A DNA stretch of 64,000 nucleotides, from assembly GCF_048771995.1 (NCBI RefSeq), contig NC_133064.1:28871001-28935000 (forward strand), in the 5' to 3' direction. Every line of letters begins with the position of its first letter. The stretch's first letter is position 1. The translations under genes and the position numbers were made by a program. Positions 1,592-63,710 of this stretch are shown here, piece after piece. The stretch comes from Taeniopygia guttata (taxonomy: Eukaryota > Chordata > Aves > Passeriformes > Estrildidae). The notes beneath the pieces were generated by a model. It worked only from the letters and a program-made list of their open reading frames with translations. It made no database searches and was not told the DNA's origin.

Positions 1592-1593
1592 GG

Positions 1594-3669: not shown

Positions 3670-3673
3670 AACT

Positions 3674-35226: not shown

Positions 35227-35370
35227 GCAAGCTGTAAACAAACAAAGACCTTATGGTGCACGCATTTAACATTTTTTTCAATTGTGTGTGAGTTTCAGAA
35301 ATAAATACAGCACTTAAGGCAGTGAAGTGGTGTTCCCACAGCCCTGCTCTAGGTTGCTGGATTCCAGATT

Positions 35371-36388: not shown

Positions 36389-36679
36389 TGTCACTATAGG
36401 ACACGAGAATGCACAACGCGGGCCACTTGCCACTTTGCAAGGTAAAAGAGAGCGTTTATTTTCTGACTCCAACTTTTATACTTCTCCAAAGGTGACAGTG
36501 GATTGGAGAGTGAATGGGCCACCTCTCCAGAGACATTGGAAAAAGCACTAGTACATCAAGTCTCTCCACCCCCACGAAGGAATGCAAAACAATATGTTAT
36601 TTACAGAAACTGTGTGGGAAAGCTTCCCAACAGAATGCAAACTCAGAAGGCTTTAGAAAACTCAAGAATCAGGGCGACA
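36389..36679 (-). mobile_element. 3' LTR of alpha/beta-like provirus (291 bp)
   Basis: TGTCACTATAGG...AGGGCGACA on the + strand. It carries the same TATA and AATAAA positions as the 5' LTR. A purine-rich AAAAAGGGTGAGA abuts it on the internal side, as a polypurine tract should. Confidence 0.95.
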
Positions 36680-36725
36680 TCTCACCCTTTTTAGTTGAAA
36701 AGAAAAGAAAAAATGAATAAGGCTC

Positions 36726-41191: not shown

Positions 41192-42657
41192 TGTATCGTG
41201 TCCCGTGGACTCCGGGAAGTGGCAGCCCTTGGGCTGCGAGGCGGTGCAACATCACTGGACACCACGCCTCCCGCAGCATCTGCAGAGCCAGAGGAGCCTT
41301 CCCCTTGATCCGGCAGGCTCCGCGAGGGGCCGAAGTCGCACATCTCCTCAGCCTTATCCAGGACCACCTGCCAAAACCGCCCGTGGTCCTTCGGACGCAC
41401 GGTCACCTGGCAGGCAGGGAGGGTCCACAAGGTCGACTGGGAATATCCGCGGCCACGGGGAGTCACCGGTCTCCCGCCGGCCGCGTCAGCAGTCGCGCTA
41501 AAGGTGAACACCCCAGTGCCCTGCTGCGCCGCAGTCCCGGCCCCCGCGGCAGTTGGGGAAGGCGGAGCGGAACCAGCCGGTGCCCCAGCGGTGCTGTCTG
41601 CAGTATCAGCAGAGGGCACCGCGGCGGGCGCAGGCGGAGGCGCAGACCACAACCCCAGCACAGCACTCCCATCCCCCGGGACGGGGGAAGGACAGGGCGC
41701 AGAGGGAGACGCGGCGCGCGGAGACACGTCACCGCGGGACGACACAAGGGAGTCTGGCACGCCCCCAAGGAGCGTCGGACCCGCACCGCGCAGCCTCCTG
41801 GTGGGCACCGCCCCCATCAGGCGGGACAGGGCGGGCTGCCCGCCTGCCGGGGCGGGGTCCGATGGAACAGTGACCAATGCCCCGCCTTTGGCGGCCCTCA
41901 CCGCCTGCGCATGCCCGGCAGGCCGCGCAGGCTCAGGGGTCGGAGCGGGTTCCTCCTCAGAAGAGGAACCTGAGACCGGGCCAGGCGACTGCACCTGCGT
42001 CTTCTCCAGGGGAAATGTAACACCACAGTTTGGGCAATTCACCGTCACCGAGTCAGACGCAATCCGAGGCGGGGGCTGATCCACGGTCCCCTGTTCACCC
42101 CCGAGCGCCGGGAAGGCCCAAAGAGAAAGTGCTTTCCCGCCCAGCCCACTACGCCTACAATGCGGGGCAGGGCGAGGCGGCCGAACCGGCTTCACCGACC
42201 GGATTCCTGGAGCCAGTGGGCTGGGAGCCCGAACCACACCAGAGGAGGAGCCGCCTTCCGGCTCACTCCCCCCGGGGCTAGGGGAATCAGGGCAACTGTA
42301 CAGAGACTCGGCTTCCCCAGCATCCGCATCCAAGACAGATAGGTCCCCCAGAGAAGCCCGAGAACTGCCAATCTCAGACCCCTGCCGAATGGCAACCAAC
42401 CTCTTGAACAGCATCATCAGCGGCCCAACATCTTCAAAACGATTATCAAGCAGGGCATCCATGAGGCGATCTTCCACGGGAGACCAATTCTCCCAGAAAA
42501 GGGCCTCAGCAAGACTGGGAAAGAATCCCTGTTCCCTTGCCCATAAAAACAGCCTCTCAAAATCGTCCTAATAAAAAGGAACGCGTTTCCGCTTCAGCAC
42601 CTCCCTCCAAACGTCCAAAGCCACAGACTCCTCCCTAATGCCCTCAAAGCTCTCCAT
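41095..42657 (-). pseudogene. gag 5' part (matrix and Pro/Ala-rich spacer), alpha/beta-like provirus
   Basis: The best start is the ATG at 42,657 (MESFEGIREES). An in-frame amber TAG at 42,570-42,568 stops it after 29 codons, and the same frame then stays open to 41,095. Matrix-like helices (EDRLMDALLDNRFEDVGPL) are followed by a long Pro/Ser/Ala/Gly-rich spacer with a lone C-X2-C-type pair near CPNCGV. The final residues before the stop read out of frame relative to the capsid. Two lesions (amber stop, frame change) inactivate gag. Confidence 0.8.
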
Positions 42658-42763
42658 TACCAAAAAAAAAAAAAAAACAGCAACAGGCAACGCGCTAAAC
42701 ATACAGAAAGACCTCACCAACAGTTCCCAGCCTAAACTGCAATACATTTCGGCGGTCACCAGA

Positions 42764-43054
42764 TGTCGCTATACGACACGAGAATGCACAGCGCGAGCCA
42801 CTTGCCACTTTGCAAGGTAAAAGAGAAAGTTTATTTTCTGACTCCAACTTTTATACTTTTCCAAAGGTGACAGTGGATTGGAGAGTGAATGGGCCACCTC
42901 TCCAGAGACATTGGACAAAGCACTAGTACATCAAGTCTCTCCACCCCCACGAAGGAATGCAAAACAACACGTTATTTACAAAAACTGTGTGGGGAAGTTT
43001 CCCAATAGAATGTAAACTCAGAAGGCTTTAGAAAACTCAAGAATCAGGGCGACA
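42764..43054 (-). mobile_element. 5' LTR of alpha/beta-like provirus (291 bp)
   Basis: Minus strand TGTCGCC...ATAGCGACA. It has a TATA box TATAAAAG (complement of 42,850-42,857) and AATAAA (complement of 42,832-42,837). Two bases past its end, the minus strand reads TGGTGACCGCCGAAATG, whose first eight bases match a tRNA-Trp primer site. The rest does not, so the primer is uncertain. Confidence 0.92.
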
Positions 43055-44167: not shown

Positions 44168-44172
44168 GAGGA

Positions 44173-44859
44173 TGTCCTAGTTTAGGGCAAATTTGGGGAA
44201 AACCCTCTGGAAGGAGCCCCCAGAAAACAAACCCCCACGGCCCCTCCCCACCCACCTGGTTCGGGAAAAAATTTTCTCTGAGAGAAGTGGAAAAGAACCT
44301 GTTTATTCAACGAACAAAGCACCCCCCAGCACCAAGAAGAAAATTAGCAACACCAGATGACAACAAAACTCTTTTCACCACTCTGAAGAGATGAACAAAT
44401 CCAGAAAGTCTTTCCTGGGAGTGGTCGCCCAGGTCTGGACGCTGGGGATTGCTCTCCAGCACTGGGGATGGCTGCTGCAGATCACAAAATGCAGGATCTC
44501 GGTGCTCCTCGGTGTTTCCCAGGTCCCAGTCCGGAGCAGGTTGGATGGTATTCAGCAAGAGGAAAGGAAAAGAAACAGTCCAGGGAAAGAATTGGACTGC
44601 TTAGCTAAACTAACTAGGAAGCAAAGGAAAAAGCAGAAGCAAGCAAAGCAAGCAAGCCAAGCAAGCAAGCAAAGCAAAAGCCAGCCAGCCAGCACTAGCC
44701 TTTTCTAGACAGCTGACCATGGGGGGAGGTGAACTGGCTGATAACAAGGCAAAACAAACCTTCACTTTCAGAGTCAGTTCTGAAAGCACAGAACATAATA
44801 TCAAATGTAAACAGAACACACGATTGGAGATACAAACACCATAACGTCACCCTAGGACA
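44173..44859 (-). mobile_element. 3' LTR (family D) of ERVL provirus (687 bp)
   Basis: + strand TGTCCTAGTTTAGG...CACCCTAGGACA. It holds a GCAAG/AAGCC-rich simple tract (44,628-44,695) and, on the minus strand, an AATAAACAGG poly(A) signal near 44,305. A G-rich ATAAGGGGTGGA abuts it internally as a polypurine tract. Confidence 0.95.
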
Positions 44860-44939
44860 TTCCACCCCTTATCTCCATATCTTCAACATCATGTAAAAAC
44901 TCCATCAAGTTAAAACTTATATCTTTCACTTACTCATAC

Positions 44940-45013
44940 TTTCGACACTTACACATTTCCTTCTATTTCACTTGCTCAAACCTTTGACACTTACACATTT
45001 CCTTCTTTCTCAT
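44940..45013 (-). repeat. Short tandem duplication upstream of the ERVL polypurine tract
   Basis: GACACTTACACATTTCCTTC occurs twice (about 44,946 and 44,987) with similar flanks, in the untranslated region between integrase and the 3' LTR. Confidence 0.7.
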
Positions 45014-45029
45014 GTCTGTGTGTTTTCAT

Positions 45030-46832
45030 GCACAGACATTGGCAGTAACATCCAGCAAACAGTGATATTTGCACAATAGTTTCACCCCACAATCAGATCT
45101 CCCTGAGGTACACATCATGTTGTTCCATCTCTCTGCATTATCCACCATGTACAACCTGGTCCCTGAGCAAAGAAAATCCCACGAATGGGTTTGTCTGTAC
45201 TCGAGGCAGGATTGATCCACACTGATTTCCCTAACAAACCTCTGACATGTGCCACTGGGACTTTATCTCCATCTACTATATTCTGGGGCTCAGACTGGGC
45301 AGGACCTGCTCGATTGGTGCAACCTCGGCTGTTAAATAACCAGGTGGCCTTTTGCTAGATTTTGCCCCCAATTTTTGAAAGATCCCCCACCCAATGCTTT
45401 TAGGGTGGTTTTTAACAGTCCATTGTACCTCTCCACTTTGCCTGCAGCTGGTGCATGGTAGGGGATGTGGTACATCCACTCAATGCCATGTTCCCTAGCC
45501 CAGGTATTGATAAGGCTATTCTTGAAATGAGTCCCATTGTCTGACTCAATCCTCTCAGGGGTACCATGCCTCCAAAGGACCTGCTTTTCAAAGCCCAGGA
45601 TGGTGTTACGTGCTGTAGCATGAGACACATGTAGGTTTCCAACCATCCAGTGGTGGCTTCTACCATTGTGAGCACGTAGCGCTTGCCTTGGCATGTCTGG
45701 GGCAGTGTGATGTAGTCAATCTGCCAGGCCTCTCCATATTTGTACTTGGACCGCTGACCACCATAGCAGAGGGGCTTCACTCGCTTGGCCTGTTTGATGG
45801 TAGCACACGTCTCACAGTCATGGATCACCTGAGAAATACTGTCCATGGTTAGATCCACCCCTCGGTCTCATGCCCACTTATAGGTGGCATCTCTACCCTG
45901 ATGGCCTGAGGCATCATGGGCCCATCGTGCTAGGAACAACTCTCCCTTGTGTTCCCAATCAAGGTCTGTCTTTGACACCCCTATCTTTGCAGCCTGATCT
46001 ACCTGCTGATTGTTTTGCTGCTCTTCATTAGCTCTACTTCTGGGGACATGGGCATCTACATGGCGAACCTTCACAGGTAGCTTCTCTACCCGGGTAGCGA
46101 TATCTTTCCACTCTTCAGCAGCCCAAATTGGTTTTCCTCTACGCTGCCAGTTAGCTTCTTTCCACCTCTCTAGCCACCCCCATAGAGCATTGGCTGCCAT
46201 CCATGAATCAGTGTAGAGGTAGAGCTTTGGCCACTTCTCCCTTTCTGCAATGTCTAGGGCCAGTTGAACGGCTTTGAGTTCAGCAAGCTGGCTTGATCCA
46301 CCTTCTCCTTCAGTGGCCTCTGCAACCCATTGTGTGGACTCCATACAGCTGCTTTCCACTTCCGATTCATCCCTACAATGCGACAGGAACCATCAGTGAA
46401 AAGAGCGTAGCGTGTTTCCTCTGCTGGCAGTTGGTTATATGGTGGAGCTTCTTCAGCCCGTGTCACTGGTTCTTCTTCTTCATCTGTGACACCAAAACTT
46501 TCACCTTCGGGCCAATTTGTAATTACTTCCAAAATCCCAGGGCGATTCAGCTTACCAATATGGGCACACTGCGCGATGAGAGCAATCCACTTGCTCCATG
46601 TAGCACTGGTGGCATGGTGTGTGGAGGGAACCTTTCCTCTGAACATCCACCCCAGCACCGGTAGTCGGGGTGCCAGGAGGAGTTGTGCTTCTGTGCCAAT
46701 CACCTCTGAGGCAGCCTGGACTCCCTCATAGGCGGCCAAGATTTCCTTCTCTGTTGGGGTGTAGTTCGCTTCAGACCCTCTGTAGCTCCGACTCCAAAAT
46801 CCCAGTGGTCGGCCTCGAGTCTCATCAGGCAC
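45030..46832 (-). pseudogene. RNase H and integrase of ERVL provirus
   Basis: RNase H starts near 46,430 (ALFTDGSC), continues in another frame from 46,359 (AELKAVQLALD; YTDSWMAANALWGWL), and ends near VRHVDAHVPRS. Integrase has its H-X3-H finger (AHDASGHQG, 45,920) and C-X2-C (CETC, about 45,810), the first Asp in WQIDYITLP (45,720), and after a further frame change Asp in ESDNGTHF and Glu in GKVERYNG, spaced 35 residues. All catalytic residues are visible, but they lie in at least three frames, with stops near 45,867. The wording is typical of avian ERVL pol. Confidence 0.9.
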
Positions 46833-47857
46833 CTTCTGCCAAAGGCTCCAGGACAGACCATGGTTCCAGGCTGCAGAGTCACGTTCTTCACATCTGGTCC
46901 TGTCCTGACTGGGCCAAGGGCTACTGCATGAGCAATTTCCTGCCTTATCTGGGTGAAAGCTTGCTGCTGCTCAGGGCCCCAGCAGAAATCATTCTTCTTG
47001 CGGGTGACCAGGTAGAGAGGACTCACGATCTGACTGTACTCAGGAATGTGCATTCTCCAGAAACCGATGGCGCCTAAGAAAGCTTGTGTCTCCTTCTTGT
47101 TGGTTGGTGGGGACATAGCTGTGATCTTGTTGATGACATCTGTAGGAATCTGACGCCGTCCATCTTGCCACTTCACTCCCAAGAACTGTATCTCTCGAGC
47201 AGGTCCCTTCACTTTACTCTTCTTGATGGCAAAACCAGCTTCCAGGAGGATTCGGATGATTTTCTTGCCTTTCTCGAACACTTCTGCTGCTGTGTTCCCC
47301 CACACAATAATATCATCAATATATTGTAGATGTTCTTGAGCCTCACCCTTTTCTAGTGCAGTCTGGATCAGTCCATGGCAGATGGTAGGACTGTGCTTCC
47401 ACCCCTGGGGCAGTCGGTTCCAGGTATACTGCACTCCCCTCCATGTAAAGGCAAACTGAGGCCTGCATTCTGCTGCCAGAGGAATGGAGAAAAATGCATT
47501 GGCAATATTAATAGTGGCGTACCACTTCGCTGCCTTGGACTCCAGCTCGTACTGGAGTTCCAGCATGTCTGGCACAGCAGTGGTGGAGTCACTTCATTCA
47601 ATGCACGGTAGTCCACTGTCAATCTCCATTCTGCTTCAGATTTACGCACAGGCCAAATGGGCCTGTTGAAGGGTGAGTGGGTTTTGCTGACCACCCCTTG
47701 GCTCTCCAGCTCTCGGATCATCTTATGGATGGGAACCACAGCATCTCGAGTTGTTCTGTACTGTCGACAATGCACTGTTGAAGTGGCAATTGGTACCTTT
47801 TGTTCTTCTCCCTTCAAAAGTCCTACTGTAGTTGGATTCTCAGACAGTCCAGGCAAG
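46700..47857 (-). pseudogene. Reverse transcriptase of ERVL provirus
   Basis: The N-terminal part is in the frame 47,857-47,575 (RTTRDAVVPIHKMIRELESQ; EWRLTVDYRALNEVTPP). A frameshift follows near 47,580, then the frame 47,575-46,700 holds the palm (INIANAFFSIPLA, LPQGWKHSPTICH, and YIDD in LQYIDDIIVWGN) and thumb/connection (GAIGFWRMHIPEYSQIVSPL). The first catalytic Asp, expected in the palm word IDIANAFF, reads Asn here (INIANAFF). This would itself disable the enzyme. LTR C separates it from protease. Confidence 0.9.
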
Positions 47858-49272
47858 GTGTTTGTCATGGTTTGACACTGGCACAATGCCAGTGCCCCCC
47901 ATGAAAATGCAATTTCTCAACTGAATGCTGTGAAATGCGATCGAGAACAGAGCAAAGCAGGCCCAAGCTTAATTACAAGAAAAAAACTTTATTAAACTAC
48001 TACCACTATGCTACTATAAAAGAGAGGGAAAAAAAAAAGTAACACCCACAATTCAAAATGAAAACCTTCCAAAGTATTCCTCCTCCCACCACCCAACTCC
48101 AACATCCCACAGTGAGACACAATCTGGACCCCAATCAGGTTTCCACCCTCCCGATAATCAACACCCAGTCCATCTGCAGGGAGAGAGGAGTCTCTTCTGT
48201 GCCACAGACCCCCCAAGAAACACAGCTGCCACATCCTGTGCTTCCATGTCACCACATGGCACCGCCCGGAGAAAAAAAGTTTGCCAGTGGTGACCCTCTC
48301 CTTTCCATGCACAGTGCTCTCATCACCAATGCATGGATGGACAGACTGCGTTTTAGGATTTTTCCTTTTCAAGGATGCCCTGCCAAGAGGGGAAAAAACA
48401 ACAGTTCAGTTTTTCATTTTTGGGACCACAGTCCCCCCCATTTTCCCCTGGGGCTGAGGATCCAAGAACAGAGATCTTCTTCTCTTCTTCCTCTGCGAAG
48501 ACAGGGGGCACCACCACAAACCTCCTTAACTTTTCTCTGTTCGCTCCACTTCTGTCTTTTCCCAGCTGAAGCAGGTCTCTTTGGCTCACCGGCATCCTCC
48601 TAAAATACAGTCTCTCTTGGAGGAGAAGATCAGTTCAATCTGTGGCTGCCAAGAAAAAGTCCAGCCAAAAAGCCACTCCATCATCTCCTCCCACCTAGAA
48701 TTTCTCCTTCCAACATCCCAGGTCCCAGACTGTCTCTTTTCCTCTCTTTTTCAAACCAAGGAGGAGAAAAATTTCACAAAGCTTTCATTTCTCAGGAAGG
48801 GTTAAAAGTCCCAACTCCCAGAGATGGCTTGCTGCCCAGGCTCCAGCTCCCACAGTCCGGCTGGGCACCTTGCGGCCCCCCTGCTCTTCTCCTTCTCCGC
48901 GGTGAACTGCTGATAAAACCACCGCCGTCTCTTTTCTCTCTTGGGAGAGAGAGACTCTGGGGGGAACGGAGACATCCCAGATTTTCTCCACCCTTCCATC
49001 TGCAGGGGGCCAGCCCGGTTCCAGCCCCTCCACCCTTGGGCCTACCTCCGAAGGCCACATGGCTTTTCCCCTCCCCCACCCAGCTCGTGGCCGGGCAGGG
49101 GAGAGTCCTGCACTGACCGCTGACCAGAACCTAAGAGAGCGAGTTCTCCTGGGAATTCTGCTTTTAACCCCTCTGTGTTCTCTGAGGCGTGTCTACCTTC
49201 AATTGGTCAATGTCCAAATTGACCTCTTCCTTCCGGAAAAATTCCTTTTCCGTGTCAAACCACGACAGTGTT
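47858..49272 (-). mobile_element. Solo LTR family C, copy 3, nested in ERVL pol (1,405 bp)
   Basis: The LTR is 47,863-49,267 (+ strand TGTCATGGTTTGACACTGG...GTGTCAAACCACGACA), flanked by a perfect GTGTT duplication (47,858-47,862; 49,268-49,272). It is the reverse orientation of the copies at 14,766 and 33,817. It is younger than the ERVL provirus it splits. ORFs within it are accidental. Confidence 0.95.
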
Positions 49273-49659
49273 CAATTGCTGGATGCCCTCTGTCACTACA
49301 GCTGCTATCCCAAATGCCCACCTGAGTCCCTTTGGGTCTTTTAAATACCCCCTTCAAAGGTAATCTATGCCCAAAATGCATGGGGCCTCTGGGCCAGTCA
49401 CAATAGGGTGTTTCTTCCACTCATTTCCTGTCAGACTTACATCAGCTTCCACCAAGGTAAAGTCCTGTGATCCGCCTGTCACACCGGCAATAGAGACAGA
49501 TTCTGCCCCTATGTGTCTCGATGGAATTAATGTGCATTGTGCACCAGTATCGACCAAAGCCTTATATCTTTGTGGTTCCGATGTGCCAGGCCAGCGAATC
49601 CACACAGTCCAGAAAACATGGTTTTCCCTCGCCTCTACCTGGCTAGAGGCAGGGACCCT
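49273..49659 (-). pseudogene. Protease of ERVL provirus
   Basis: Frame continuous with gag after one amber codon. It contains the aspartic protease active site ALVDTGAQCTLIPS (about 49,560) and the C-terminal block APCILGIDYL (49,390-49,360). It then runs on toward RT until LTR C at 49,267. There is no ATG of its own, consistent with expression as a gag-pro extension. Confidence 0.85.
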
Positions 49660-49662
49660 CTA
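49660..49662 (-). promoter_or_regulatory. Gag-pro amber codon, in-frame read-through arrangement
   Basis: TAG ends gag, and the next codons (AGG GTC CCT...) stay open in the same frame into the DTGAQ protease. This is the layout used for stop-codon suppression and needs no frameshift. That suppression occurred in the parent virus is inference. Confidence 0.6.
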
Positions 49663-51234
49663 AGCCTGGTTATCCTTCTTGCCTTGGGCGTATGTCTTAG
49701 AGGTTCCTTCAAGGGGATCAGACATGTCATCCTCATCATCATGCCTGGCAGTTTGGCTACGGGCAACTGGAGCTGCTCTCCCTTTGGTGGCACTTCCTCT
49801 CTGAGTCTTGCCTTCCTTGAATTCATGCACCCGTTGTGCCAGAGCAGCAGTAGATTTTCCGTCCCATTTCCTCATGTTTTCTCCGCAATCGCGCAGGAAG
49901 AACCACAGCTCAGTTCGTGGGGTGTACCTTCTTTCACCATCTGAGGAACGTCTACGTTGGATACCAGAACCTCTGATCTGTACTGCTGAGATTTGGAGAA
50001 GGTCCTCCTTAATCTCCTCCCTGAGTCTCTTATGATTCTCCTCTATCTTATCTTCTAATTTCTGCAGATGTGTTTCCTCTGCTGCAGTTCTGGCATGGGT
50101 TGGGCCATGTACAGCATCTGCATATGCTCGGAGTTTCCTTGCCATGTCGAGCACGGTCTCATCCCTCTCATCCCGCTTCATTATCGCTAAGGCAGAAGTG
50201 TATTCATGTGGCCCAAGCCGTACAAGTTTTCGCCACATCACAGATGTACATGGTACCAAGTCTGGATTCCTAGTTGTTATTTCATCTGAGAAGATAATCT
50301 CTGCCACTGCCATTTCTCTCAGACATTGGATCCCTTGTTCTATAGTCTTCCACTGGGTCTGCTGCATATAAAGATCATCTGCACACAGGTATCTTTGTGC
50401 TACACTTTCCAGAACCCATGCCCAGAGGCTGTGAGGGTTAGCCCCCCTCATCATTCCTTGATCAATGACAGGATCATGTGACAGGGATCCCAAATGTCTT
50501 GCCTCAGTACCATCCAGAATTGTATCCTCGCCGGCAGCATCCCAAAGACAGACTAACCAACTAATTACAGACTCATCAGGTCGTCGAGTGTAATCCTTCC
50601 TTAGGCCACGAAGGTCCTTTAGGGAAAAGGACTCAATATTGGCCTCTGATCTTGTACCAGTTGCCTTGACTTCTGATTTTATGTCAGCAGGCATTGAGGG
50701 TCCTTCTCCTGCATTATCATCATCGTCGTCATCATCCACTGGTCGATTGGTCTTTTCTGTGTGCTTCCCACTTCTTGTGCTAGTAGCAACAGCTATTGGT
50801 TGAGGCTTGGCTGCTGAGTCTGGTTTAGCTGCTAGCCTAGGCTCACTGTCTGGTTTAGCTGCTGGCTTTGAACCGGAGGTGTTGGCTGCAGCCTGAGTGA
50901 CTGGGATAGCTGCTGATTTATCTCCCTGCCCCCCTTCCTCTGTCTGCTGCCCTACAGTATCTAGCAGGGTGCGATAAGCATATGCTAGGGCCCAGCTCAC
51001 TGCAATGATCTTTTTCTCCTTAGAATTAAGATGGCACTTATCTTTCAGGTACTTCACCACCTCGGCCGGATTATGAATTTGTTCACATGGAAAGTCCCAG
51101 GCTATAGGGTCAGAAAATTCCTTTCAGATTTGGCCCATATCCTCCCATTTCTCACACCACTCAGGATTTCTCACACCTGGGTCTACTCCTGGGTCAGAGG
51201 TCTCATCAGCCCCTCTAGAAATCTCAGCCCTCAT
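49660..51234 (-). pseudogene. gag of ERVL provirus
   Basis: Start ATG at 51,234 (MRAEISRGADE). An in-frame TGA at 51,126-51,124 (codon 37) breaks it, and the same frame is then open for over 480 codons to TAG at 49,662-49,660. Features: a basic/acidic linker with a run of seven Asp, a capsid-like central part (LRGLRKDYTRRPDESVISWL; DQGMMRGANPHSLWAWVLE; LYMQQTQWKTIEQGIQ), a coiled-coil-like EETHLQKLEDKIEENHKRL, and a charged C-terminus. It has no Cys-His box, as is usual in ERVL and spumavirus-related Gag. The terminal TAG is followed in the same frame by protease. Confidence 0.88.
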
Positions 51235-51761
51235 TCTAAAGAGACTCCAGACTGTATAGAGAAAGCTTACCAGATTAAACACCAGGAAGATGGTCTCCTT
51301 AACAGTCGGGGAAACTGAACGTTCTCTAATAGGGAGGTAACAAATTCACAGGAGAAGAAGGAAAGCAAAGGCTGAAAAGCCTCATCCCCTGCTTCCCCTC
51401 TAACAAACTGGCTGCACAACCATAACCATGAACCATACATTCCAGGAACAGACCTCAGCACCTTTATAAACCCCCTGGAAGCCATTACACCCAAGCACAG
51501 CCCGATGGATATTCTGGTCAGCTCCCTTCTACTGCAAAACCTATGTATTAGGGACAATACTGGAGCTATTCCTGGATAAAAAAAATAAACCTAGGGACCA
51601 TAGGGGGATTAAGATCTCAAAAAACCTAGGGACCAGAGACACATGCAGGCCTTCACCCCAAGAGACACTATGAATTCAAACAACAGAACCAGTAACTGCT
51701 CCATACCAACACAAAATAATTGGAACAAAAATATGATTACAACAGGGTTTTTTCCACTCTC

Positions 51762-51786
51762 TCGAGCCACAAGTTGGGCGCCAAAA
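51762..51786 (-). promoter_or_regulatory. Primer-binding site, tRNA-Lys-like, ERVL provirus
   Basis: Next to the 5' LTR end the minus strand reads TGGCGCCCAACTTGTGGC, matching the tRNA-Lys1,2 primer site TGGCGCCCAACGTGGGGC at 16 of 18 positions. The same site is repeated in the right palindrome arm near 61,460-61,480. Mammalian ERVL elements typically use tRNA-Leu. Lys is the spumavirus primer. Confidence 0.75.
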
Positions 51787-51789
51787 TAT

Positions 51790-52477
51790 TGTCCTAGTTT
51801 AGGGCAAATTTGGGGAAAACCCTCTGGAAGGAGCCCCCAGAAAACAAACCCCCACGGCCCCTCTCCACCCACCTGGTTCAGGGAAAAATTTCCTCTGAGA
51901 GAGAAGTGGAAAAGAACCTGTTTATTCAACGAACAAAGCACTCCCCAGCACCAAGAAGAAAATTAGCAACACCAGATGACAACAAAACTCTTTCACCACT
52001 CTGAAGAGATGAACAAATCCAGAAAGTCTTTCCTGGGAGTGGTCGCCCAGGTCTGGACGCTGGGGATTGCTCTCCAGCACTGGGGATGGCTGCTGCAGAT
52101 CACAAAATGCAGGATCTCGGTGCTCCTCGGTGTTTCCCAGGTCCCAGTCCGGAGCAGGTTGGATGGTATTCAGCAAGAGGAAAGGAAAAGAAACAGTCCA
52201 GGGAAAGAATTGGACTGCTTAGCTAAACTAACTAGGAAGCAAAGGAAAAAGCAGAAGCAAGCAAAGCAAGCAAGCCAGCCAAGCAAGCAAGCAAAGCAAA
52301 AGCCAGCCAGCCAGCACTAGCCTTTTCTAGACAGCAGACCATGGGGGGAGGTGAACTGGCTGATAACAAGGCAAAACAAACCTTCACTTTCAGAGTCAGT
52401 TCTGAAAGCACAGAACATAATATCAAAGGTAAACAGAACACACAATTGGAGATACACCATAACGTCACCCTAGGACA
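51790..52477 (-). mobile_element. 5' LTR (family D) of ERVL provirus (688 bp)
   Basis: Same termini as the 3' LTR, followed on the minus strand by the primer site and gag. It lies wholly inside the left palindrome arm and is repeated at 60,766-61,453. Confidence 0.95.
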
Positions 52478-52689
52478 GAGGATTAATTATAGTCCTTTCA
52501 AAAAATACTGAATATCTGTTTTTATCTCTCAATGTGTTGTGATAATAGTATTACTGAATTACTGATAGTACTTACATAGCCTTAATTACCCATAAGGAGT
52601 AGTCAGCATAAGCATATCTAACTAACCTGAATTGCATGTTTGTTGTTTGTTTTTTGTTTTTTGTTTTTTTAACTGGATTCTTAATTGCT

Positions 52690-53180
52690 GCGTCTCCCCC
52701 TCAAATCCACGCGTCAGATTCCCTGTGGAGCCTGGCCATCTGGGCAGTTGGGGTGAGGCAGGCAGAGGGAAGGGTTTCTCCTTGAATCCCTGGGGGCCTG
52801 GAGAAGCCCCACGTGATTCCAAAGATGAGCTAGTCCCACAAGCAAAGAAAGAGGCACTCTCCCTTCAGGCTTAGTTCCAAAGTTTTAATTTCACCTCGAA
52901 GGAGTCCCGAGCAAGAGAGGGCGTGTCCCCACCCAGACCAGCCAGATATAGGGGGCAGGGAAAACCTGACCAGCCAATGGGGGAAGGACATGGGAGTGGC
53001 TCTCTGGGGGCAAGGCCTCAGAGTGACCACCGAGGAGGGGGTGAGGGAGGAGTCCCAGCCAGGGTCCAGTTACCTGGTAACCCTGCTAGAAGGGTCTGGA
53101 CAAAGGGGAGTGGTCACCAGGTGATGGACACATGACCTGGGGGGGACAGGGGGATGGGTTGGGGTTTGATGGACATACAG
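52690..53180 (-). mobile_element. Probable old LTR in palindrome flank (approximate)
   Basis: On the minus strand it has CCAAT context (CCCATTGGCTGG), a TATA-like CTATATCTGG near 52,940, then AATTAAAACTTTGG near 52,890, an LTR-like order over about 100 bp. The mirror copy is at 60,063-60,553. No termini were found. Confidence 0.4.
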
Positions 53181-53840
53181 GTACTGATGGGAAAGCTGGG
53201 ATGAACCAAACAGATACAAAGAGGGGATATACAGTGCAAACACAACTCTACACTTAGTATTTCTACTTTCATGGATAAGTTTAATTTGTATGACAGAAGT
53301 TGTCATGTATCTCGGTGCCAACTGATTACCACAGATAACAAAGACCAGGTTTAACTAACTTAAGTAAAAAAGGCAATTGCACTTCAGATTATTTTTTTGT
53401 ATCTTTTCTAACAAGCTGGTTGATAAATGTTATATTAAATGGCTTGTTCTAAAGACTGAAATAGAACTTGAGGTATTCGTTGAAAAGCTATTTTTCTAGG
53501 TAGTTGAAGTCTTGTCATTTTTAGAGCCTGGAACTTCAGGATCTGAAACGTGAGCATACCATGGCCTGGCATAGTTTGAAATTACTGCTGAATTTTCAGT
53601 GGCCTATTGCTCTGATACCATGTAACAAATAGGATTTCAGTTATGTTATTTGTCATTTCTGCTATGCAAAGATCCAACTCAAGTTGTGGAGTGTGTTAGA
53701 AAGGTGCAAGTTTTCCAGCTGGGATTGTAAATCCTTGCTCATAAATGCTGTTCTTGTCTGGCTTCTTGGGTGGGAAGGGCCCCAAATACAGTGCACACTC
53801 AGGAGACTTTGTGTAGTCTACCAGAAATTCTGTAAATTTT

Positions 53841-55715
53841 AATATGTGTATGCATCATAAGATTATTTTTTAATGAAGCTGAAATTAAAAATCTTGGAAG
53901 GTAAAATACCAATTTCTAATTGTCTGGTCCTTTTGATTTTCTTGTAAAATTACTGTGTTATAAAAGAGTATGGTTTTCTTTTTTATGTTTATAACGTACA
54001 CATAGAAAAGAAATCCTGATTAATGTGCTTCTAAACTGCACTGGATTAACCTGTCTGGCATGAGAAAACGGATTAATTATTTTAAGCTGTTAGTAAAGTC
54101 AGCAGATGTGCGTTTCCCTATCTCAGCTTGTTACCCTCTCTTCTAGTACACTGTGGTCTGAATTTCTGGAAAAGAAACTTGGTTCTAAACAAAGTGCTGG
54201 ATATCTCAAAGATCTTAAATTTTATTTTCATGCAATGCCTTAATCCCATAGAGCAAATTTCTCATTGCAGGCAAAAAATTTAGCAGGGATAAGGTTGCAA
54301 ACTTCCTGTAACAAAAAATCTTTCTGAGCACTAGTACACTTTTATTTAATCAAAAGAAAAGGCCAAAGAGCTCTAAATCAAGCATTTGTTTCCAATTTCA
54401 GTTACTCCTTAATGTCTTCATTTTCTCTTTCATGTATTCTTTTAAGAACATGAGATTTTTCAGTGTCTGAGATCTGTTTCCTTCACAGGTGTGAGTCAGT
54501 AGTTCTGAGGTCTGCATTAGGTTCTCTGTTTCTCTTTTGAACAAAGACACGTTATCGGTTACTTTTTACCTTCTAGATCATTTTACCTTTGACAGTATAC
54601 TGTGGGATTTTGTCTATAAAAACACAGGTCTAGCCGCATTTTTAAATCAAGGTTTTGGTGTAGGTGAAGATTTGCAGAGTCTTTTGCAGCCTTCCTTTAT
54701 TGACCATATACCACATGGCATGAATAGTGTTTTTTTGTAATATCGTCATGCAGGTCAGCTTTCCCAATGCTGTTGCTCACACAAATCGGTTTCATTCACT
54801 AGATCAATGTTCCTAATCAAAACAACTTTTTCCCTGTAGTTATTTGTTGGATGTACTTCCTCTCTTATAACTATTGCTTTTCTGCTATTGTACCTTCCTA
54901 ATTTGGCTCAACAGCTGCTACCTTAGTCCTGGTGCTACAGCAGTGCAAGTAATTAATAATACAAGTTGCTGTCCTCTGGCTTTTTTGCTCCATGGAACTT
55001 GTTTACAGAGTTGCCATCTGTTTTTGGAATTGGAGTATTCTTCTGCCTGTGAGACTGCTGATTTGATAGCATCCTGGACTGACATATAGAAGGAAACAGT
55101 GTGTAGACTGACTACTTCATTCTGTACTTGATTGATTGATTGATTGATATATATATATATATCAATTGATAAAATAATAGATGCCTATGAAATCTTTATT
55201 AAAGAGTTTCTATGTGGTTCTTGAACCACATCTTTTTTTTTTTTTTAAGAAGAGGGAAATATCCATGAGAGCTTTTGAGTAGCCTTATCTTGGAAAGCTT
55301 TCTCAACATCATCAGAAACTCTTAAAGCTGCCCACATTTCCCATCTCTTAGCTTGGCACAAATAGGGTCAAACAAAATCCTGCTTCTTTTGATCTGGCAC
55401 AGCCAAGTGGTTGACCTCAATTCCTTGGCTCTTGGTTAAAGTACTTGAGATCTCCAGACTCCTCTGTCCTGGTACCTAGGCAAAGCCTGTGTGGCTGCAG
55501 CACCTGGTGCACTTGAGCTTGAAGTGCTGGTCTGGAAAGTATCTTGTCTAAAAACACTTCTACAGCTCCGGCTGGATAATGACAAGTAGGTAAGTCATGT
55601 ATCATCTTTGCTTTGTATATTTTTACATGTACTAATGCTGAGTAAGTGGTCAGTTGCTCCTCAGAAATGGGTGTGCTGGAATTATAATGGGAGCAGTCTT
55701 GGTCCCTATATATAG
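53841..55715. other. Palindrome spacer, single-copy part
   Basis: AT-rich DNA with no gene signal. A microsatellite (GATT)n followed by (AT)n lies at 55,128-55,168, and a T run at 55,233-55,247. Presumably intronic or intergenic host sequence. Confidence 0.55.
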
Positions 55716-56228
55716 CATAGAATCATAGAATATCCTGAGTTGAAAGTGACCCACAAAGGTCATCAAAGTCCAACTCCTGGCCCTGCATGGGACAACCGGA
55801 AAAATCACACCATGTGCCTGAGAGTATTGTCAAAACACTTCCTGAATTCTGTCAGGCTTGGTGCTGTGACCACTTCCCTGGGGAGCCTGTTCCAGTGCCC
55901 AGCCACCCTGTGTGAAGAATCTTATCTTAATATCCAACCTAAACCTCCCCTTACACAACTTTGGGCCATTCCCTTGGATCCTACCACTGGTCACCAGAGT
56001 GAAGAGATTTGTGCCTGCCCCTCCACTTCCCTGGAAGTTGTAGACTGTGATGAGGTCTCCCCTCAGTCTCCTCTAGGCTGAACAAATCAAGTGACCTCAA
56101 CTGCTCCTTGTATAACTTCCCCTCCAGATTCTTCACCATCTTTGTTGCCCTCCTTTGGATACTCTCTAATAGCTTTATAGCTTTCTTATACTGAGGTGCC
56201 CAAAACTGTGCACAAAACTTGAGGTGAG
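55716..56228 (-). mobile_element. CR1 LINE 3' fragment
   Basis: The + strand begins AGCATAGAATCATAGAATAT and continues through 500 bp of CR1 3' end. It is a different subfamily from the other copies (TCATCAAAGTCCAACTCCTG wording). Confidence 0.9.
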
Positions 56229-56230
56229 TC

Positions 56231-56800
56231 TGTGGTGGGTTGTCCTTGGCTGGACACCAGGTGCCCACCAAGCTGCTCTATCACTCCCCATCTGGACAGG
56301 GGAGAGAACATAAGATAGAAAACAACTTGTTGGTTGAGATAAGGCAGTTTACTAAGGCAAAAGTGAAAGCTTGTGTGTGCACAAGCAAAGAGGAAGAATT
56401 TTTTTTTATTTTCTACTTCCTATCATCAAGTGATGTCTGGCCACTTAATGGGATGCGGCGTTTCAGCATGTGTACCAGTTGCTCCATAAGGCAAACATCG
56501 TAAGTAAGGAATGCCCCTCTTCCTCCTTCTTTACTTAGCTTTTATATCCCTTATGGAATATCCCTTTGGTTAATTTGGGTCAGCTGGCCTCGTTGTGTCC
56601 CTTCCCAGGATCTTGCCCACTCCCAGCCCCTAATGGGAATTTTGAGAGACAGCATTGATGCTGTGCCAGAGCTGCTCAGCAGTAGCCAAAACACTAGTGT
56701 GTTATCAACACCTTTCTAGCTACCAATGCAAAGCATAGCACTGTGAGGACTGCTTTGGGGAAATGAACTCTGGCTCAGCTGGACTAAATACAGAGCCATC
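56231..56800 (-). mobile_element. Avian ERV LTR, TGTGGTGGGTTG family (right end approximate)
   Basis: Starts GTGGTGGGTTGTCCTTGGC with the CCAGGTGCCCACCAAGC segment that I recognise from a common bird LTR. It continues to a GTGTTATCAACACCTTT block near the end. On the minus strand a TATA-like GGGATATAAAAGC is near 56,542. Confidence 0.7.
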
Positions 56801-56837
56801 TTGATATGTTCCACAGGCAAGCACAGGGGTTTGGTAA

Positions 56838-57492
56838 CTGCAAGTCCTGGTTTGGGACAGATTTGGGAGGGAACTTCCTGAAGGGGTCTCCTCTAGAAAG
56901 CAAATTCAAACAGTCCCTCCCCCAACCAGTTTGGGAGGTAAACCTCCTTAAAGAAAAGTGGAAAAACTGTTTAGTTAACAAGCAAAGTACTCACAAACAT
57001 GAAAAAATGAATAATATTAAAAAATGGAATCTCTTGTTGTTCTGAAGAGATGGCAAATTCAGAGAGAGTCCTTCTCGTGGGGTGTAGCTCGGTTCGCTCA
57101 GTCTCTTATCAGTCCCTCCTGCACTGGAAAATGCCGCATCCCGGGCCCCAGTGGGCCACAGGAATGAGCTCACGGTGCTTTTCTGAGTTTTCGGTCCAGA
57201 GCAGGGCTGATAAGTTCCAAGAAAAAGCAACAGTTTGGGGACCTTCTCTGCCTCAGCTAGCTAAAGAACTAAAAGCAAAGGAGAGCTCTCTTCTGCTGTC
57301 CATGCTGCAGACAACACAATCCATGAGAAAGAATGTGGGGGAGCAAGTGCAGTTTCTGCAGACAAACTGCATGCTTCTTCTCCCCCCCTTGGCTCTCGGA
57401 TCTAGTTTTAAAGGCGCAGAACTCAATATCCAGCATAAACAAAACAGATGATTGGGGATACAAGCATCATAAAGTGACCCTAGGACACTGCA
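56838..57492 (-). mobile_element. Solo ERVL-type LTR, diverged family D (645 bp)
   Basis: 56,843-57,487, AGTCCTGGTTTGGGACAG...GTGACCCTAGGACA (first T of TG mutated). Flanked by a perfect CTGCA duplication (56,838-56,842; 57,488-57,492). It is clearly older than the 44,173 LTRs but has the same start, end and layout. Confidence 0.9.
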
Positions 57493-57701
57493 GTGTAACT
57501 AAAAGCTTGTGATTGCAGGGGTGAGTTGTTGATGGGTAAGGAGGCAAGGAAAAATATCTTTAGTATATGTGGAAACCCAGGGCACTGGGAATATTTCTCT
57601 GTCTGCTCTGGGGTGTCCTGACGCCCAGGGGAGCACTGACTCTGACCCTCATTCATGGAGAAAACTTCCAAAGCCTCAAGGTAAACTAGAAACCACAAAA
57701 G
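57493..57701. other. Short spacer, no feature recognised
   Basis: 209 bp between two LTRs. Nothing could be identified. Confidence 0.4.
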
Positions 57702-58220
57702 TGTGAAATAGATTGTAGAGATTGTAGATAGTAGTGTAGTATGTCACATGGGTGAGAAATTTAGGTTTTAGGATTTTTAGCATATTGTAGACGGGTACAA
57801 GATGGAGGGTACAGGGTGTTGTCTTGAGTTCCTTTCTTCTTTCTTCTTCCTTCTTCTTGGGTTTGGGTGGTATCTTGTAATAGGGCAGAAAAATCCACCT
57901 TGCAGTTCTTTAGGGATCAGTTATTGGGTTAGAAAGGAAAATAATTTAGGTGTCACTTCTTAATTTGCTATCTTAGTTTTTGATTAGACTTAAAAGGCCT
58001 TGTAACAAGAGATTGTTAGCCATTTTTGTGCTGTTTTTCCTGCACGCAGAATCTGGTGCAGACAGTGTGCTGAAGTTTTGATAAGATAACAATAAACAGA
58101 ATCTGAAGACCAAAAAAGTCCAATGCGTCTCTCGTTCCTGACACAGAACTGCTCCAGGAGGGTCTCCCCTGCCAGAGGAGCCCCCAGGGAGTTGCCCAAC
58201 TTGGGGCCTGCGAATTCACA
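57702..58220 (+). mobile_element. ERVK-like solo LTR (519 bp)
   Basis: TGTGAA...TTCACA ends form a 6-base inverted repeat. AATAAACAG near 58,092 gives + sense. The interior shares GGTACAAGATGGAGG with the LTR at 18,160. No target duplication was seen. Confidence 0.7.
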
Positions 58221-58262
58221 AGTATAAAATGCTCTGAATTTTTATTATGTAGTGAAATGTTC

Positions 58263-58505
58263 AAGAGTTAAGGTCAGGGAAAGATCACTCACAGATAGCT
58301 ATCAGTGGCAAAACAGACTCAACTTGTGGATATTAATTGAATTTATTGCTAACAAAATCAGAGCAGGATAATGAGAAGTAAAATAAAACCTTAAAAACAC
58401 CTTCCCCTCACCCCTTCCTCCTTCCTGGGCTCTTACCTCCTCCCCCAGCATTGCAGAGAGACATGGAATGGGGGTTACAGTCAGTTCATCATGTCACCAA
58501 AAATC
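58263..58505 (-). mobile_element. Fragment of the TGTGGTGGGTTG-family avian LTR
   Basis: The words GATCACTCACAGATAGC, GGCAAAACAGACTCAACTTG, CAGAGCAGGATAATGAGAAG and CAGTCAGTTCATCATGTCACC are in the order known from the middle of this LTR family. It may be a displaced continuation of 56,231. Confidence 0.6.
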
Positions 58506-58510
58506 TCAGG

Positions 58511-59010
58511 TGTGGCAGTTTCAGTTGAACCAAGCAGAAACACCAATTAAGTGTAGTGGTTTTGGTTAGCCAATCTGAGTTTCCTGGCCAATGCACCAAT
58601 TAATGTACTGGGTCTAGTGCTGGCCAAATGCCAGTGCACCCACTAGAATAATTTTCTGATTTTCTGCTGCTAGATAAGGATTAGGAGAGCAAAGCAGGCT
58701 TAAAACTTTAAAGGGTATAAAGAAAACTTTAATAACAGAACTAAAAAAAATAGTAAGAAATCAGAATAAACCTTCAGGTCACTTCTCCGCCCCCCAGCTC
58801 TTCTTTCTTTTCCTACTGACAATGTAAAGAGACATATTTGGTATTTTCAGTCAGTTTGCCACTTTTAAAATAATCTTTCTTCAGTTCCCTTAGGGAAAGG
58901 CATCTCTCCTGCCATGCCATGGAGACTTTTCCACAAGAAACAGTTATCTCATGGTTTTAATTGTCATGAATAACAGCCACCTGGAAATCTGCAATTGTGA
59001 AGTCCTGCCA
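58511..59010 (-). mobile_element. LTR F fragment
   Basis: Starts TGTGGCAGTTTCAGTTG. It is collinear with 10,983-11,250, 11,842-11,974 and 12,703-12,810 but lacks the G and H insertions, so it shows the pre-insertion state of LTR F. Truncated at about 59,010. Confidence 0.8.
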
Positions 59011-59402
59011 ATGCGCTCTTCTCCCCTCTGCCTTTCCCTTTCCCTGGCTAGCTCTGGGGAGAAGGGGCGCGGGCAGATTTCCAGCGCTTCCCGCTGAACC
59101 CTCACCGGGCTTTGGGCAGCACTGTCGGAGTTCGGAGAGCAGTCAGTGACCCCACGGCGATTGAATGAAGAGAGTCTTTCTCCGGGGGGCGAATTTCGTT
59201 TATTATAATCCAACGGGGAATACAATAATTCGAAGGGAACCAGGCGTGCCGCGCCTGCATGTGCCGGAGCGGCGCGAGCAGGGCGGGGCGCGCTGGAGCC
59301 AGCCAGGAGAAAGCACGGAGTGCGCCGCGCGAACAACCTAAATACGGAACGGGGGGAAAACTGGAGCAGCCAATGGGGTAAAGCCACGGGGGGTTTGAGG
59401 TT
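59011..59402 (-). mobile_element. GC-rich LTR-like fragment at palindrome inner edge
   Basis: The minus strand has a CCCATTGGCTGC CCAAT box (59,370), CpG-rich U3, and ATAATAAACG as a poly(A) signal near 59,202. It looks like a short antisense LTR and is cut at the palindrome boundary. Class not assigned. Confidence 0.45.
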
Positions 59403-60765
59403 AGAATTTACAGAATTTCTGGCAGACTACACAAAGTCTCCTGAGTGTGCACTGTATTTGGGGCCCTTCCCACCCAAGAAGCCAGACAAGAACAGCATTT
59501 ATGAGCAAGGATTTACAATCCCAGCTGGAAAACTTGCACCTTTCTAACACACTCCACAACTTGAGTTGGATCTTTGCATAGCAGAAATGACAAATAACAT
59601 AACTGAAATCCTATTTGTTACATGGTATCAGAGCAATAGGCCACTGAAAATTCAGCAGTAATTTCAAACTATGCCAGGCCATGGTATGCTCACGTTTCAG
59701 ATCCTGAAGTTCCAGGCTCTAAAAATGACAAGACTTCAACTACCTAGAAAAATAGCTTTTCAACGAATACCTCAAGTTCTATTTCAGTCTTTAGAACAAG
59801 CCATTTAATATAACATTTATCAACCAGCTTGTTAGAAAAGATACAAAAAAATAATCTGAAGTGCAATTGCCTTTTTTACTTAAGTTAGTTAAACCTGGTC
59901 TTTGTTATCTGTGGTAATCAGTTGGCACCGAGATACATGACAACTTCTGTCATACAAATTAAACTTATCCATGAAAGTAGAAATACTAAGTGTAGAGTTG
60001 TGTTTGCACTGTATATCCCCTCTTTGTATCTGTTTGGTTCATCCCAGCTTTCCCATCAGTACCTGTATGTCCATCAAACCCCAACCCATCCCCCTGTCCC
60101 CCCCAGGTCATGTGTCCATCACCTGGTGACCACTCCCCTTTGTCCAGACCCTTCTAGCAGGGTTACCAGGTAACTGGACCCTGGCTGGGACTCCTCCCTC
60201 ACCCCCTCCTCGGTGGTCACTCTGAGGCCTTGCCCCCAGAGAGCCACTCCCATGTCCTTCCCCCATTGGCTGGTCAGGTTTTCCCTGCCCCCTATATCTG
60301 GCTGGTCTGGGTGGGGACACGCCCTCTCTTGCTCGGGACTCCTTCGAGGTGAAATTAAAACTTTGGAACTAAGCCTGAAGGGAGAGTGCCTCTTTCTTTG
60401 CTTGTGGGACTAGCTCATCTTTGGAATCACGTGGGGCTTCTCCAGGCCCCCAGGGATTCAAGGAGAAACCCTTCCCTCTGCCTGCCTCACCCCAACTGCC
60501 CAGATGGCCAGGCTCCACAGGGAATCTGACGCGTGGATTTGAGGGGGAGACGCAGCAATTAAGAATCCAGTTAAAAAAACAAAAAACAAAAAACAAACAA
60601 CAAACATGCAATTCAGGTTAGTTAGATATGCTTATGCTGACTACTCCTTATGGGTAATTAAGGCTATGTAAGTACTATCAGTAATTCAGTAATACTATTA
60701 TCACAACACATTGAGAGATAAAAACAGATATTCAGTATTTTTTGAAAGGACTATAATTAATCCTC

Positions 60766-61453
60766 TGTCCTAGGGTGACGTTATGGTGTATCTCCAATTG
60801 TGTGTTCTGTTTACCTTTGATATTATGTTCTGTGCTTTCAGAACTGACTCTGAAAGTGAAGGTTTGTTTTGCCTTGTTATCAGCCAGTTCACCTCCCCCC
60901 ATGGTCTGCTGTCTAGAAAAGGCTAGTGCTGGCTGGCTGGCTTTTGCTTTGCTTGCTTGCTTGGCTGGCTTGCTTGCTTTGCTTGCTTCTGCTTTTTCCT
61001 TTGCTTCCTAGTTAGTTTAGCTAAGCAGTCCAATTCTTTCCCTGGACTGTTTCTTTTCCTTTCCTCTTGCTGAATACCATCCAACCTGCTCCGGACTGGG
61101 ACCTGGGAAACACCGAGGAGCACCGAGATCCTGCATTTTGTGATCTGCAGCAGCCATCCCCAGTGCTGGAGAGCAATCCCCAGCGTCCAGACCTGGGCGA
61201 CCACTCCCAGGAAAGACTTTCTGGATTTGTTCATCTCTTCAGAGTGGTGAAAGAGTTTTGTTGTCATCTGGTGTTGCTAATTTTCTTCTTGGTGCTGGGG
61301 AGTGCTTTGTTCGTTGAATAAACAGGTTCTTTTCCACTTCTCTCTCAGAGGAAATTTTTCCCTGAACCAGGTGGGTGGAGAGGGGCCGTGGGGGTTTGTT
61401 TTCTGGGGGCTCCTTCCAGAGGGTTTTCCCCAAATTTGCCCTAAACTAGGACA
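60766..61453 (+). mobile_element. ERVL 5' LTR, palindrome copy
   Basis: Mirror copy of 51,790-52,477, here in + orientation and followed by the tRNA-Lys-like primer site and gag. The flanking TCCTC (60,761-60,765) is the mirrored GAGGA target copy, so this is not an independent insertion. Confidence 0.95.
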
Positions 61454-62008
61454 ATATTTTGGCGCCCAACTTGTGGCTCGAGAGAGTGGAAAAAACCCTG
61501 TTGTAATCATATTTTTGTTCCAATTATTTTGTGTTGGTATGGAGCAGTTACTGGTTCTGTTGTTTGAATTCATAGTGTCTCTTGGGGTGAAGGCCTGCAT
61601 GTGTCTCTGGTCCCTAGGTTTTTTGAGATCTTAATCCCCCTATGGTCCCTAGGTTTATTTTTTTTATCCAGGAATAGCTCCAGTATTGTCCCTAATACAT
61701 AGGTTTTGCAGTAGAAGGGAGCTGACCAGAATATCCATCGGGCTGTGCTTGGGTGTAATGGCTTCCAGGGGGTTTATAAAGGTGCTGAGGTCTGTTCCTG
61801 GAATGTATGGTTCATGGTTATGGTTGTGCAGCCAGTTTGTTAGAGGGGAAGCAGGGGATGAGGCTTTTCAGCCTTTGCTTTCCTTCTTCTCCTGTGAATT
61901 TGTTACCTCCCTATTAGAGAACGTTCAGTTTCCCCGACTGTTAAGGAGACCATCTTCCTGGTGTTTAATCTGGTAAGCTTTCTCTATACAGTCTGGAGTC
62001 TCTTTAGA

Positions 62009-63096
62009 ATGAGGGCTGAGATTTCTAGAGGGGCTGATGAGACCTCTGACCCAGGAGTAGACCCAGGTGTGAGAAATCCTGAGTGGTGTGAGAAATGGGA
62101 GGATATGGGCCAAATCTGAAAGGAATTTTCTGACCCTATAGCCTGGGACTTTCCATGTGAACAAATTCATAATCCGGCCGAGGTGGTGAAGTACCTGAAA
62201 GATAAGTGCCATCTTAATTCTAAGGAGAAAAAGATCATTGCAGTGAGCTGGGCCCTAGCATATGCTTATCGCACCCTGCTAGATACTGTAGGGCAGCAGA
62301 CAGAGGAAGGGGGGCAGGGAGATAAATCAGCAGCTATCCCAGTCACTCAGGCTGCAGCCAACACCTCCGGTTCAAAGCCAGCAGCTAAACCAGACAGTGA
62401 GCCTAGGCTAGCAGCTAAACCAGACTCAGCAGCCAAGCCTCAACCAATAGCTGTTGCTACTAGCACAAGAAGTGGGAAGCACACAGAAAAGACCAATCGA
62501 CCAGTGGATGATGACGACGATGATGATAATGCAGGAGAAGGACCCTCAATGCCTGCTGACATAAAATCAGAAGTCAAGGCAACTGGTACAAGATCAGAGG
62601 CCAATATTGAGTCCTTTTCCCTAAAGGACCTTCGTGGCCTAAGGAAGGATTACACTCGACGACCTGATGAGTCTGTAATTAGTTGGTTAGTCTGTCTTTG
62701 GGATGCTGCCGGCGAGGATACAATTCTGGATGGTACTGAGGCAAGACATTTGGGATCCCTGTCACATGATCCTGTCATTGATCAAGGAATGATGAGGGGG
62801 GCTAACCCTCACAGCCTCTGGGCATGGGTTCTGGAAAGTGTAGCACAAAGATACCTGTGTGCAGATGATCTTTATATGCAGCAGACCCAGTGGAAGACTA
62901 TAGAACAAGGGATCCAATGTCTGAGAGAAATGGCAGTGGCAGAGATTATCTTCTCAGATGAAATAACAACTAGGAATCCAGACTTGGTACCATGTACATC
63001 TGTGATGTGGCGAAAACTTGTACGGCTTGGGCCACATGAATACGCTTCTGCCTTAGCGATAATGAAGCGGGATGAGAGGGATGAGACCGTGCTCGA
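62009..63096 (+). pseudogene. ERVL gag, palindrome copy, truncated
   Basis: ATG at 62,009, with the same in-frame TGA at 62,117-62,119 as the left arm, so the lesion predates the duplication. It is open from 62,183 until an LTR interrupts it at 63,097, within the capsid-like region. The open frame reads on for 10 codons into the LTR. Confidence 0.9.
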
Positions 63097-63689
63097 TGTT
63101 AGGAAAATAAGGCCTTTTTGTTCATAATATAGAGTTTTCACATCCATAAAATAGAATTTTCACTTAGAGTTTTCACTTGTCTGAACATGTTCTCATTTTG
63201 CCAGGCATTCCAGAATATCTCTCAAGGACAATTTCGTTACAAACTGTTTTAGGGAGTTGAAACTAATTTAGGGAGTTGAGGTTGCTAGGCACCAAAGCAC
63301 CTAAGCGAATATCTTCAAGGACAGTTCCGTTACAGACTTAGCAAAACATTTACTCTTGTGGAATGCGAGTAAACGTGCCTAGAAATAACATTTCTTGTTT
63401 TGAGAAAGTTCCCAGATCACAGGGACAACCTTGAGGAAGACTACTGGCCTTCATCCCATGACCACCAGGAGGCAGAAAACGACCACCTAGCAACAGAGTG
63501 CACCTGCGCAGAAAAGACACCAGAACGTCACACATCCGGAAGAGAAGACCCAATAAGTTGGGGGGGAACGGGGCACGAAAATGCGGTAGTTGGAATAACT
63601 GCTGCCCAGCGCGCTGATTTGCTTTCGTTTCCTACCATTAATAAATCTTTTTAATTAGATTAGACAGCCTATTGTGCTCGTTCATAACA
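63097..63689 (+). mobile_element. 5' LTR of a tRNA-His ERV (593 bp)
   Basis: TGTTAGGAAAATAAGG...GTTCATAACA, with TGTTA/TAACA ends. AATAAATC near 63,641 serves as poly(A) signal. It is followed by a primer site, so it is the 5' LTR of a provirus that continues past the window. It is inserted into the palindrome's gag copy. The matching target duplication would be beyond 64,000. Confidence 0.92.
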
Positions 63690-63692
63690 ATT

Positions 63693-63710
63693 TGGTGCCG
63701 TGACTCGGAT
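63693..63710 (+). promoter_or_regulatory. Primer-binding site, tRNA-His, perfect 18-mer
   Basis: TGGTGCCGTGACTCGGAT matches the complement of the tRNA-His 3' end at all 18 positions. This is the primer used by HERV-H-like class-I elements. Confidence 0.9.

Follow-up and report, generated by a model that had tools for sequence, protein, structure and literature searches.

Palindromes of sex chromosomes are long inverted repeats whose arms are more than 99% identical around a spacer, and the stretch of DNA analysed here (the window: 64,000 nucleotides of Taeniopygia guttata contig NC_133064.1, with positions numbered from its first nucleotide) contains an inverted repeat with these features, the arms of which carry part of an ERVL-like endogenous retrovirus (ERV). 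A palindrome of the songbird W chromosome described by Davis in 2010 is said to undergo arm-to-arm gene conversion; the present locus is also from a songbird, but no host gene was recognised in it and conversion is unproven. The W chromosome of the duck has 38 palindromes of 15.2-345.5 kb, composed of nested repeats and seemingly without robustly expressed functional genes (PMC7787181); the locus in the window is likewise an inverted repeat of nested repeats, but it belongs to a songbird and its visible arm is only 3.7 kb long. The human Y palindromes P6 and P8 (PMC3723533, PMC6790999) have arms more than 99.9% alike around a spacer (3.4 kb in P8), as here, but unlike here their arms are about 37 kb long or more, contain genes and have been observed to undergo conversion across lineages, with tracts of 2068 bp on average in P6 (PMC3723533). 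For a new human Y palindrome, an origin by microhomology-mediated template switching has been proposed (PMC6790999). Fold-back priming and template switching both yield inverted junctions with little homology, and in yeast the arms of inverted copy-number variants lie 1.1-34.9 kb apart once a secondary rearrangement has taken place (PMC10766186, PMC10622511). Such variants share low-homology inverted junctions with the present locus, but they are experimental or clinical events, whereas this one is known from its product alone.

Self-comparison of the window aligned the left arm as far as it is visible (50147-53842, + strand) with the reverse complement of the right arm (59401-63096, an inverted copy on the - strand) over 3696 bp with three substitutions and no gaps, an identity of 99.92%. 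The spacer between them (53843-59400) measures 5558 bp. An earlier interpretation made from the letters alone (the sequence-only reading) had proposed near-identical inverted arms with a handful of single-base differences at 50,147-53,840 and 59,403-63,096, about 5.56 kb apart; the alignment bears this out in both identity and distance, with the ends moved by 2 bp. The flanks of the two arms, outer as well as inner, are unrelated to one another, and the window contains no Ns. Identity over such a length cannot be due to chance, and the inverted repeat is real. The type of structure, a transposon-rich palindrome, is already known; no description of this locus was found in the literature, in searches that were not aimed at one species. 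Taken as a whole, the locus is interpreted here, with reasonable but far from full confidence, as the inner part of an inverted-duplication palindrome in ERV-dense songbird DNA, with a later retroviral insertion in its right arm.

The left arm carries the 5′ long terminal repeat (LTR), the leader and part of gag of an ERVL-like provirus that lies on the - strand (44173-52477), together with non-ERV flanking DNA (52478-53842) that begins with one copy of the target duplication of the provirus (GAGGA at 52478-52482, with its reverse complement at 60761-60765 in the right arm). Because the arms share both the flank and the single target-duplication copy, the right arm is a segmental copy made at the level of DNA, as the sequence-only reading had held, and a second independent proviral insertion is rejected as its origin. 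Retroposition of a transcript is not favoured either, given that the copy includes DNA upstream of the 5′ LTR.

The outer end of the right arm, in contrast to what the sequence-only reading had supposed, is probably not a breakpoint of the duplication. That reading placed the limits of the copied segment at 50147 and 63096 and counted half an ERVL provirus in it; precisely at 63097, the base next to the arm, there starts another retroviral 5′ LTR (63097-63689, + strand, 593 bp, TGTTA...TAACA), which is best read as a later insertion. This LTR has matching termini and an AATAAA polyadenylation signal at 63640, and next to it at 63693-63710 (+ strand) is a primer binding site that matches all 18 bases of the tRNA-His type; it is the sole match of that type in the window with up to three mismatches allowed. 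A scan of the whole window on both strands for the grammar of this LTR gave five candidate starts and two LTR ends, and only the start at 63097 ends at 63689, the remaining four all ending at 3669. At the corresponding site in the left arm (50146/50147) there is no insertion and the gag frame is open straight through. No continuation of the left arm was found in the right flank within the window, which ends at 64000. Since the junction hits the exact start of an LTR that has a polyadenylation signal and a primer site, 63096/63097 is the probable insertion site at which another endogenous retrovirus would have entered the right arm, in gag, after the duplication. The duplicated segment then probably extends further left than 50147, and the palindrome, with its right arm interrupted at 63097 by the inserted element, is probably longer than the visible 3.7 kb and probably continues past the end of the window. 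The limit of the arm is thereby reinterpreted as the probable result of a later retroviral insertion and not of the duplication event.

At the inner end, the window shows only one rearrangement junction on this interpretation, 59400/59401. On the left side, DNA that looks continuous and single-copy appears to run through 53842/53843; on the right side, 59401 adjoins unrelated GC-rich DNA (61% G+C over 59018-59400). The sequence shared at the junction is at most 3-4 bp long and imperfect (TTAG as compared with TTAA). That an LTR edge had set the inner boundary was considered and rejected, there being no TG/CA edge at 59400/59401 or at 53842/53843 and no inverted counterpart of the left spacer edge that could be found. 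One inverted junction suffices for everything seen in the window; the second must lie at the true end of the right arm. The spacer consists in its left part of AT-rich, apparently single-copy DNA, becomes GC-rich from about 59018, and contains what is presumably a CR1-like stretch at about 55717-56230. A diverged LTR related to those of the ERVL-like provirus (about 66-81% identical over the matched pieces) lies at 56844-57487. Within 59018-59400 there are an AATAAA on the - strand (59199-59204) and a CCAAT on the + strand (59370), and this segment may be a candidate LTR truncated by the inner junction; a second copy of it was not found elsewhere in the window.

The three differences between the arms lie at 50199 (T in the left arm and C in the right, a CpG/TpG change), at 53820 (22 bp from the inner end) and at 53839 (3 bp from the inner end). 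For the residue encoded at 50199, 120 gag relatives were compared and 95 could be aligned, of which 44 have the right-arm type, 41 serine, three the left-arm type, three a gap and four some other residue; the 16 best-scoring relatives all have the right-arm residue. Judged by these relatives, the derived base is that of the left arm. None of the three differences is more than 53 bp from an arm end; if mutation were uniform, such crowding would have P ~2e-5 (~8e-4 without the difference nearest the inner end; ~0.03 counting 50199 only). The two inner differences could stem from error-prone replicative repair at the junction (PMC4352052).

Divergence between the arms is about 14-fold lower than between the LTRs of the ERVL-like provirus (44173-44859 and 51790-52477, the latter being the 5′ LTR), with 3 substitutions in 3696 bases as against 8 in 682 aligned bases (Fisher P 3.6e-5). 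With assumed rates of 1.5-4.6e-9 substitutions per site per year, the ages would be about 90-270 thousand years for the arms and 1.3-3.9 million years for the LTRs. The comparison supports the conclusion that the right arm arose long after the provirus or else is undergoing homogenisation.

Homogenisation is the basis of the strongest rival explanation, a possible though doubtful one, by which an old palindrome has been held identical by arm-to-arm gene conversion and differences have survived only near the heterologous edges. The position of all three differences near arm ends agrees with it, as do two of three other repeat pairs in the window that served as controls. A 2.2-kb direct repeat has ten substitutions that leave 1715 consecutive aligned bases clean (P 2e-5, the floor of the simulation) and are biased towards the edges (P 4e-4), as if it were homogenised, and the LTR pair of the ERVL-like provirus has a weaker edge bias (P 0.01); in the LTR pair of an ERVK-type provirus, however, edge bias is not significant (P 0.10). 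Neither of the first two pairs is wholly homogenised inside: 5 of the 11 gap columns of the ERVL-like LTR pair are within its substitution-free stretch, and the direct repeat has a 2-bp indel within its clean run, about 472 bp from an edge. Three differences are moreover few to argue from, and mutations made at the junction may account for the inner two. The interiors of long repeats in the window nevertheless look at least partly homogenised, whether gene conversion or short-read polishing is responsible, so that simple dating is unsafe.

Polishing is the subject of a second rival, an unlikely one, in which the structure is real and its interior identity overstated: short-read polishing or consensus would have swapped reads between the copies, leaving only differences near unique flanks. 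The surviving arm differences are indeed close enough to unique sequence for one short read to span the distance, and the comparable crowding at the edges in two of the three control pairs is what such swapping would produce; yet the 2.2-kb repeat keeps seven of its ten substitutions at 150-398 bp from an edge, as well as its indel at about 472 bp, beyond the anchoring of a single short read.

That the junction at 59400/59401 is itself an assembly artefact is still less probable. A false inverted join might, for example, have linked two haplotypes, one of them with the insertion at 63097 and the three single-base differences; the window shows a single novel junction, and 3 differences in 3696 bases is within the reach of heterozygosity in birds, which counts for such a join. 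Against an artefact are the 5558-bp spacer, the left edge of which has no inverted counterpart that could be found, and the uninterrupted sequence. A simple fold-back of the same molecule is disfavoured because it cannot yield an insertion and three bases in the right arm that the left arm lacks. Least likely of all is a self-contained 3.7-kb segment inserted in inverted orientation 5.6 kb away by two template switches, its outer end falling beside an older LTR by chance: the visible match is only 3.7 kb, the outer flanks differ and the 4-bp TTAG at 59401-59404 and 63099-63102 is conceivable as a small target duplication, but the TTAG at 59401 belongs to the arm and differs by one base from the TTAA of the left arm, which makes it weak evidence, and for a random breakpoint the chance of meeting the exact start of an LTR is about 1 in 25,000, with five candidates among about 128,000 strand positions.

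For the palindrome with a later insertion, the following history is proposed. The ERVL-like provirus would first have inserted on the - strand. Then DNA to the left of 53842 would have been copied backwards onto the end of the 5.6-kb spacer; this was probably done by fold-back or by a switch of template, and no more than 3-4 bp of homology were present at 59400/59401. Last, the retrovirus whose primer site is of the tRNA-His type would have entered gag of the right arm at 63097, giving the arm its apparent end. The near-identity of the arms would reflect a young event (very roughly 0.1-0.3 million years at the assumed rates), conversion that spares only the ends, or both. Some observations weigh against this account. 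Claims about dating and conversion are weak with three differences. The window ends before the 3′ half and the target duplication of the intruding element and before any point at which the arm might resume. No relative of the intruder's LTR was found: two LTR-end/primer-site patterns had no exact matches in viral_contigs, and alignment of this LTR with the LTR-like stretches 3080-3669 and 11250-11839 gave local scores (436 and 434) barely higher than the best of 100 shuffles (429 and 420).

The provirus in the left arm has the TG..CA LTR pair and 5-bp target duplication expected of ERVL: on the + strand both LTRs begin with TGTCCTA and end with TAGGACA, and GAGGA flanks the element at 44168-44172 as well as at 52478-52482. 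The window has 88 stop-to-stop frames of at least 120 amino acids, and 30 of them were searched against Pfam; reverse transcriptase (RT), RNase H and, below the cut-off, integrase were identified in separate open frames of the provirus. Its gag frame (49660-51123, - strand, 487 amino acids; the right-arm copy is cut at 63096) had no Pfam match, and a sequence search of PDB gave no match at E up to 1. A protein search with gag found 188 proteins; among the 120 listed, the closest is 86% identical (Passer domesticus) and the named matches at the top are from songbirds. One of these 120 (P0015) bears the name Friend virus susceptibility protein 1-like, with 84% identity over 78% of the query; Fv1 is linked to ERVL-type gag, and the match would fit an ERVL-type gag here. 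The original ERV-L has a tRNA-Leu-type primer site. That of the provirus at 44173-52477 is not of this type and differs by two mismatches from the tRNA-Lys1,2 type; the provirus is therefore labelled only ERVL-like. In a search for relatives of RT, the best named match over 90% of the query is from Hirundo rustica (84% identity); another has 87% identity, one from Lonchura striata has 93% but over 34% of the query, and the more distant ones include other birds and a turtle. The RT fragment gave nine pattern stretches in viral_contigs, none of which was confirmed. A partial extra copy of the ERVL-like LTR, about 87% identical, lies at 27104-27504, and segments related to one another (73-86% identical) lie at 14766-16001, 33817-35248 and 47863-49267, the last of them inside the provirus.

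Much of the window is ERV sequence: besides the ERVL-like provirus and an ERVK-type one, it holds the element beginning at 63097 and additional fragments of RT, gag and env; the retrieved proteins alone cover 14673 bp of it (tblastn), and the closest named proteins in the gag and RT searches are from songbirds. The ERVK-type provirus (36389-43054, - strand) has 291-bp LTR-like ends that are 94.8% identical, and its long open frames match Pfam gag p24, dUTPase, protease, RT and integrase. The 2.2-kb direct repeat (1437-3671 and 9612-11841, 99.3% identical and 8175 bp apart) surrounds RT-bearing DNA, and its last ~590 bp (3080-3669, TGTTA..TAACA, then TTGGTGACCCC) look like an LTR; it may be a tandem or recombined provirus. 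A minisatellite with about four copies of a 41-bp unit is present at 4679-4850. Rfam at the gathering threshold and a tRNA scan found nothing in the window.

The density of ERVs is suggestive of the W chromosome, since the W chromosomes of birds with highly differentiated sex chromosomes contain more than 55% transposable elements as against less than 10% genome-wide (PMC8310711), and the balance tips modestly towards a location there. By a bolder and improbable extension, the visible 3.7 kb would be the innermost part of a far larger palindrome on a songbird W chromosome, its right arm repeating in reverse tens of kilobases of the ERV cluster on the left. Conversion would keep the proviral interior identical but be stopped near heterologies, and a provirus newly inserted in one arm would thus leave a small diverged patch around itself. 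If conversion acts, proviruses in such regions are not safely dated from their LTRs, and the insertion-bearing arm and its insertion-free counterpart offer a natural test of whether conversion halts at a large heterology. If the extension is true, palindromes would homogenise and even preserve ERV copies on the W chromosome, and LTR dating there would be misleading.

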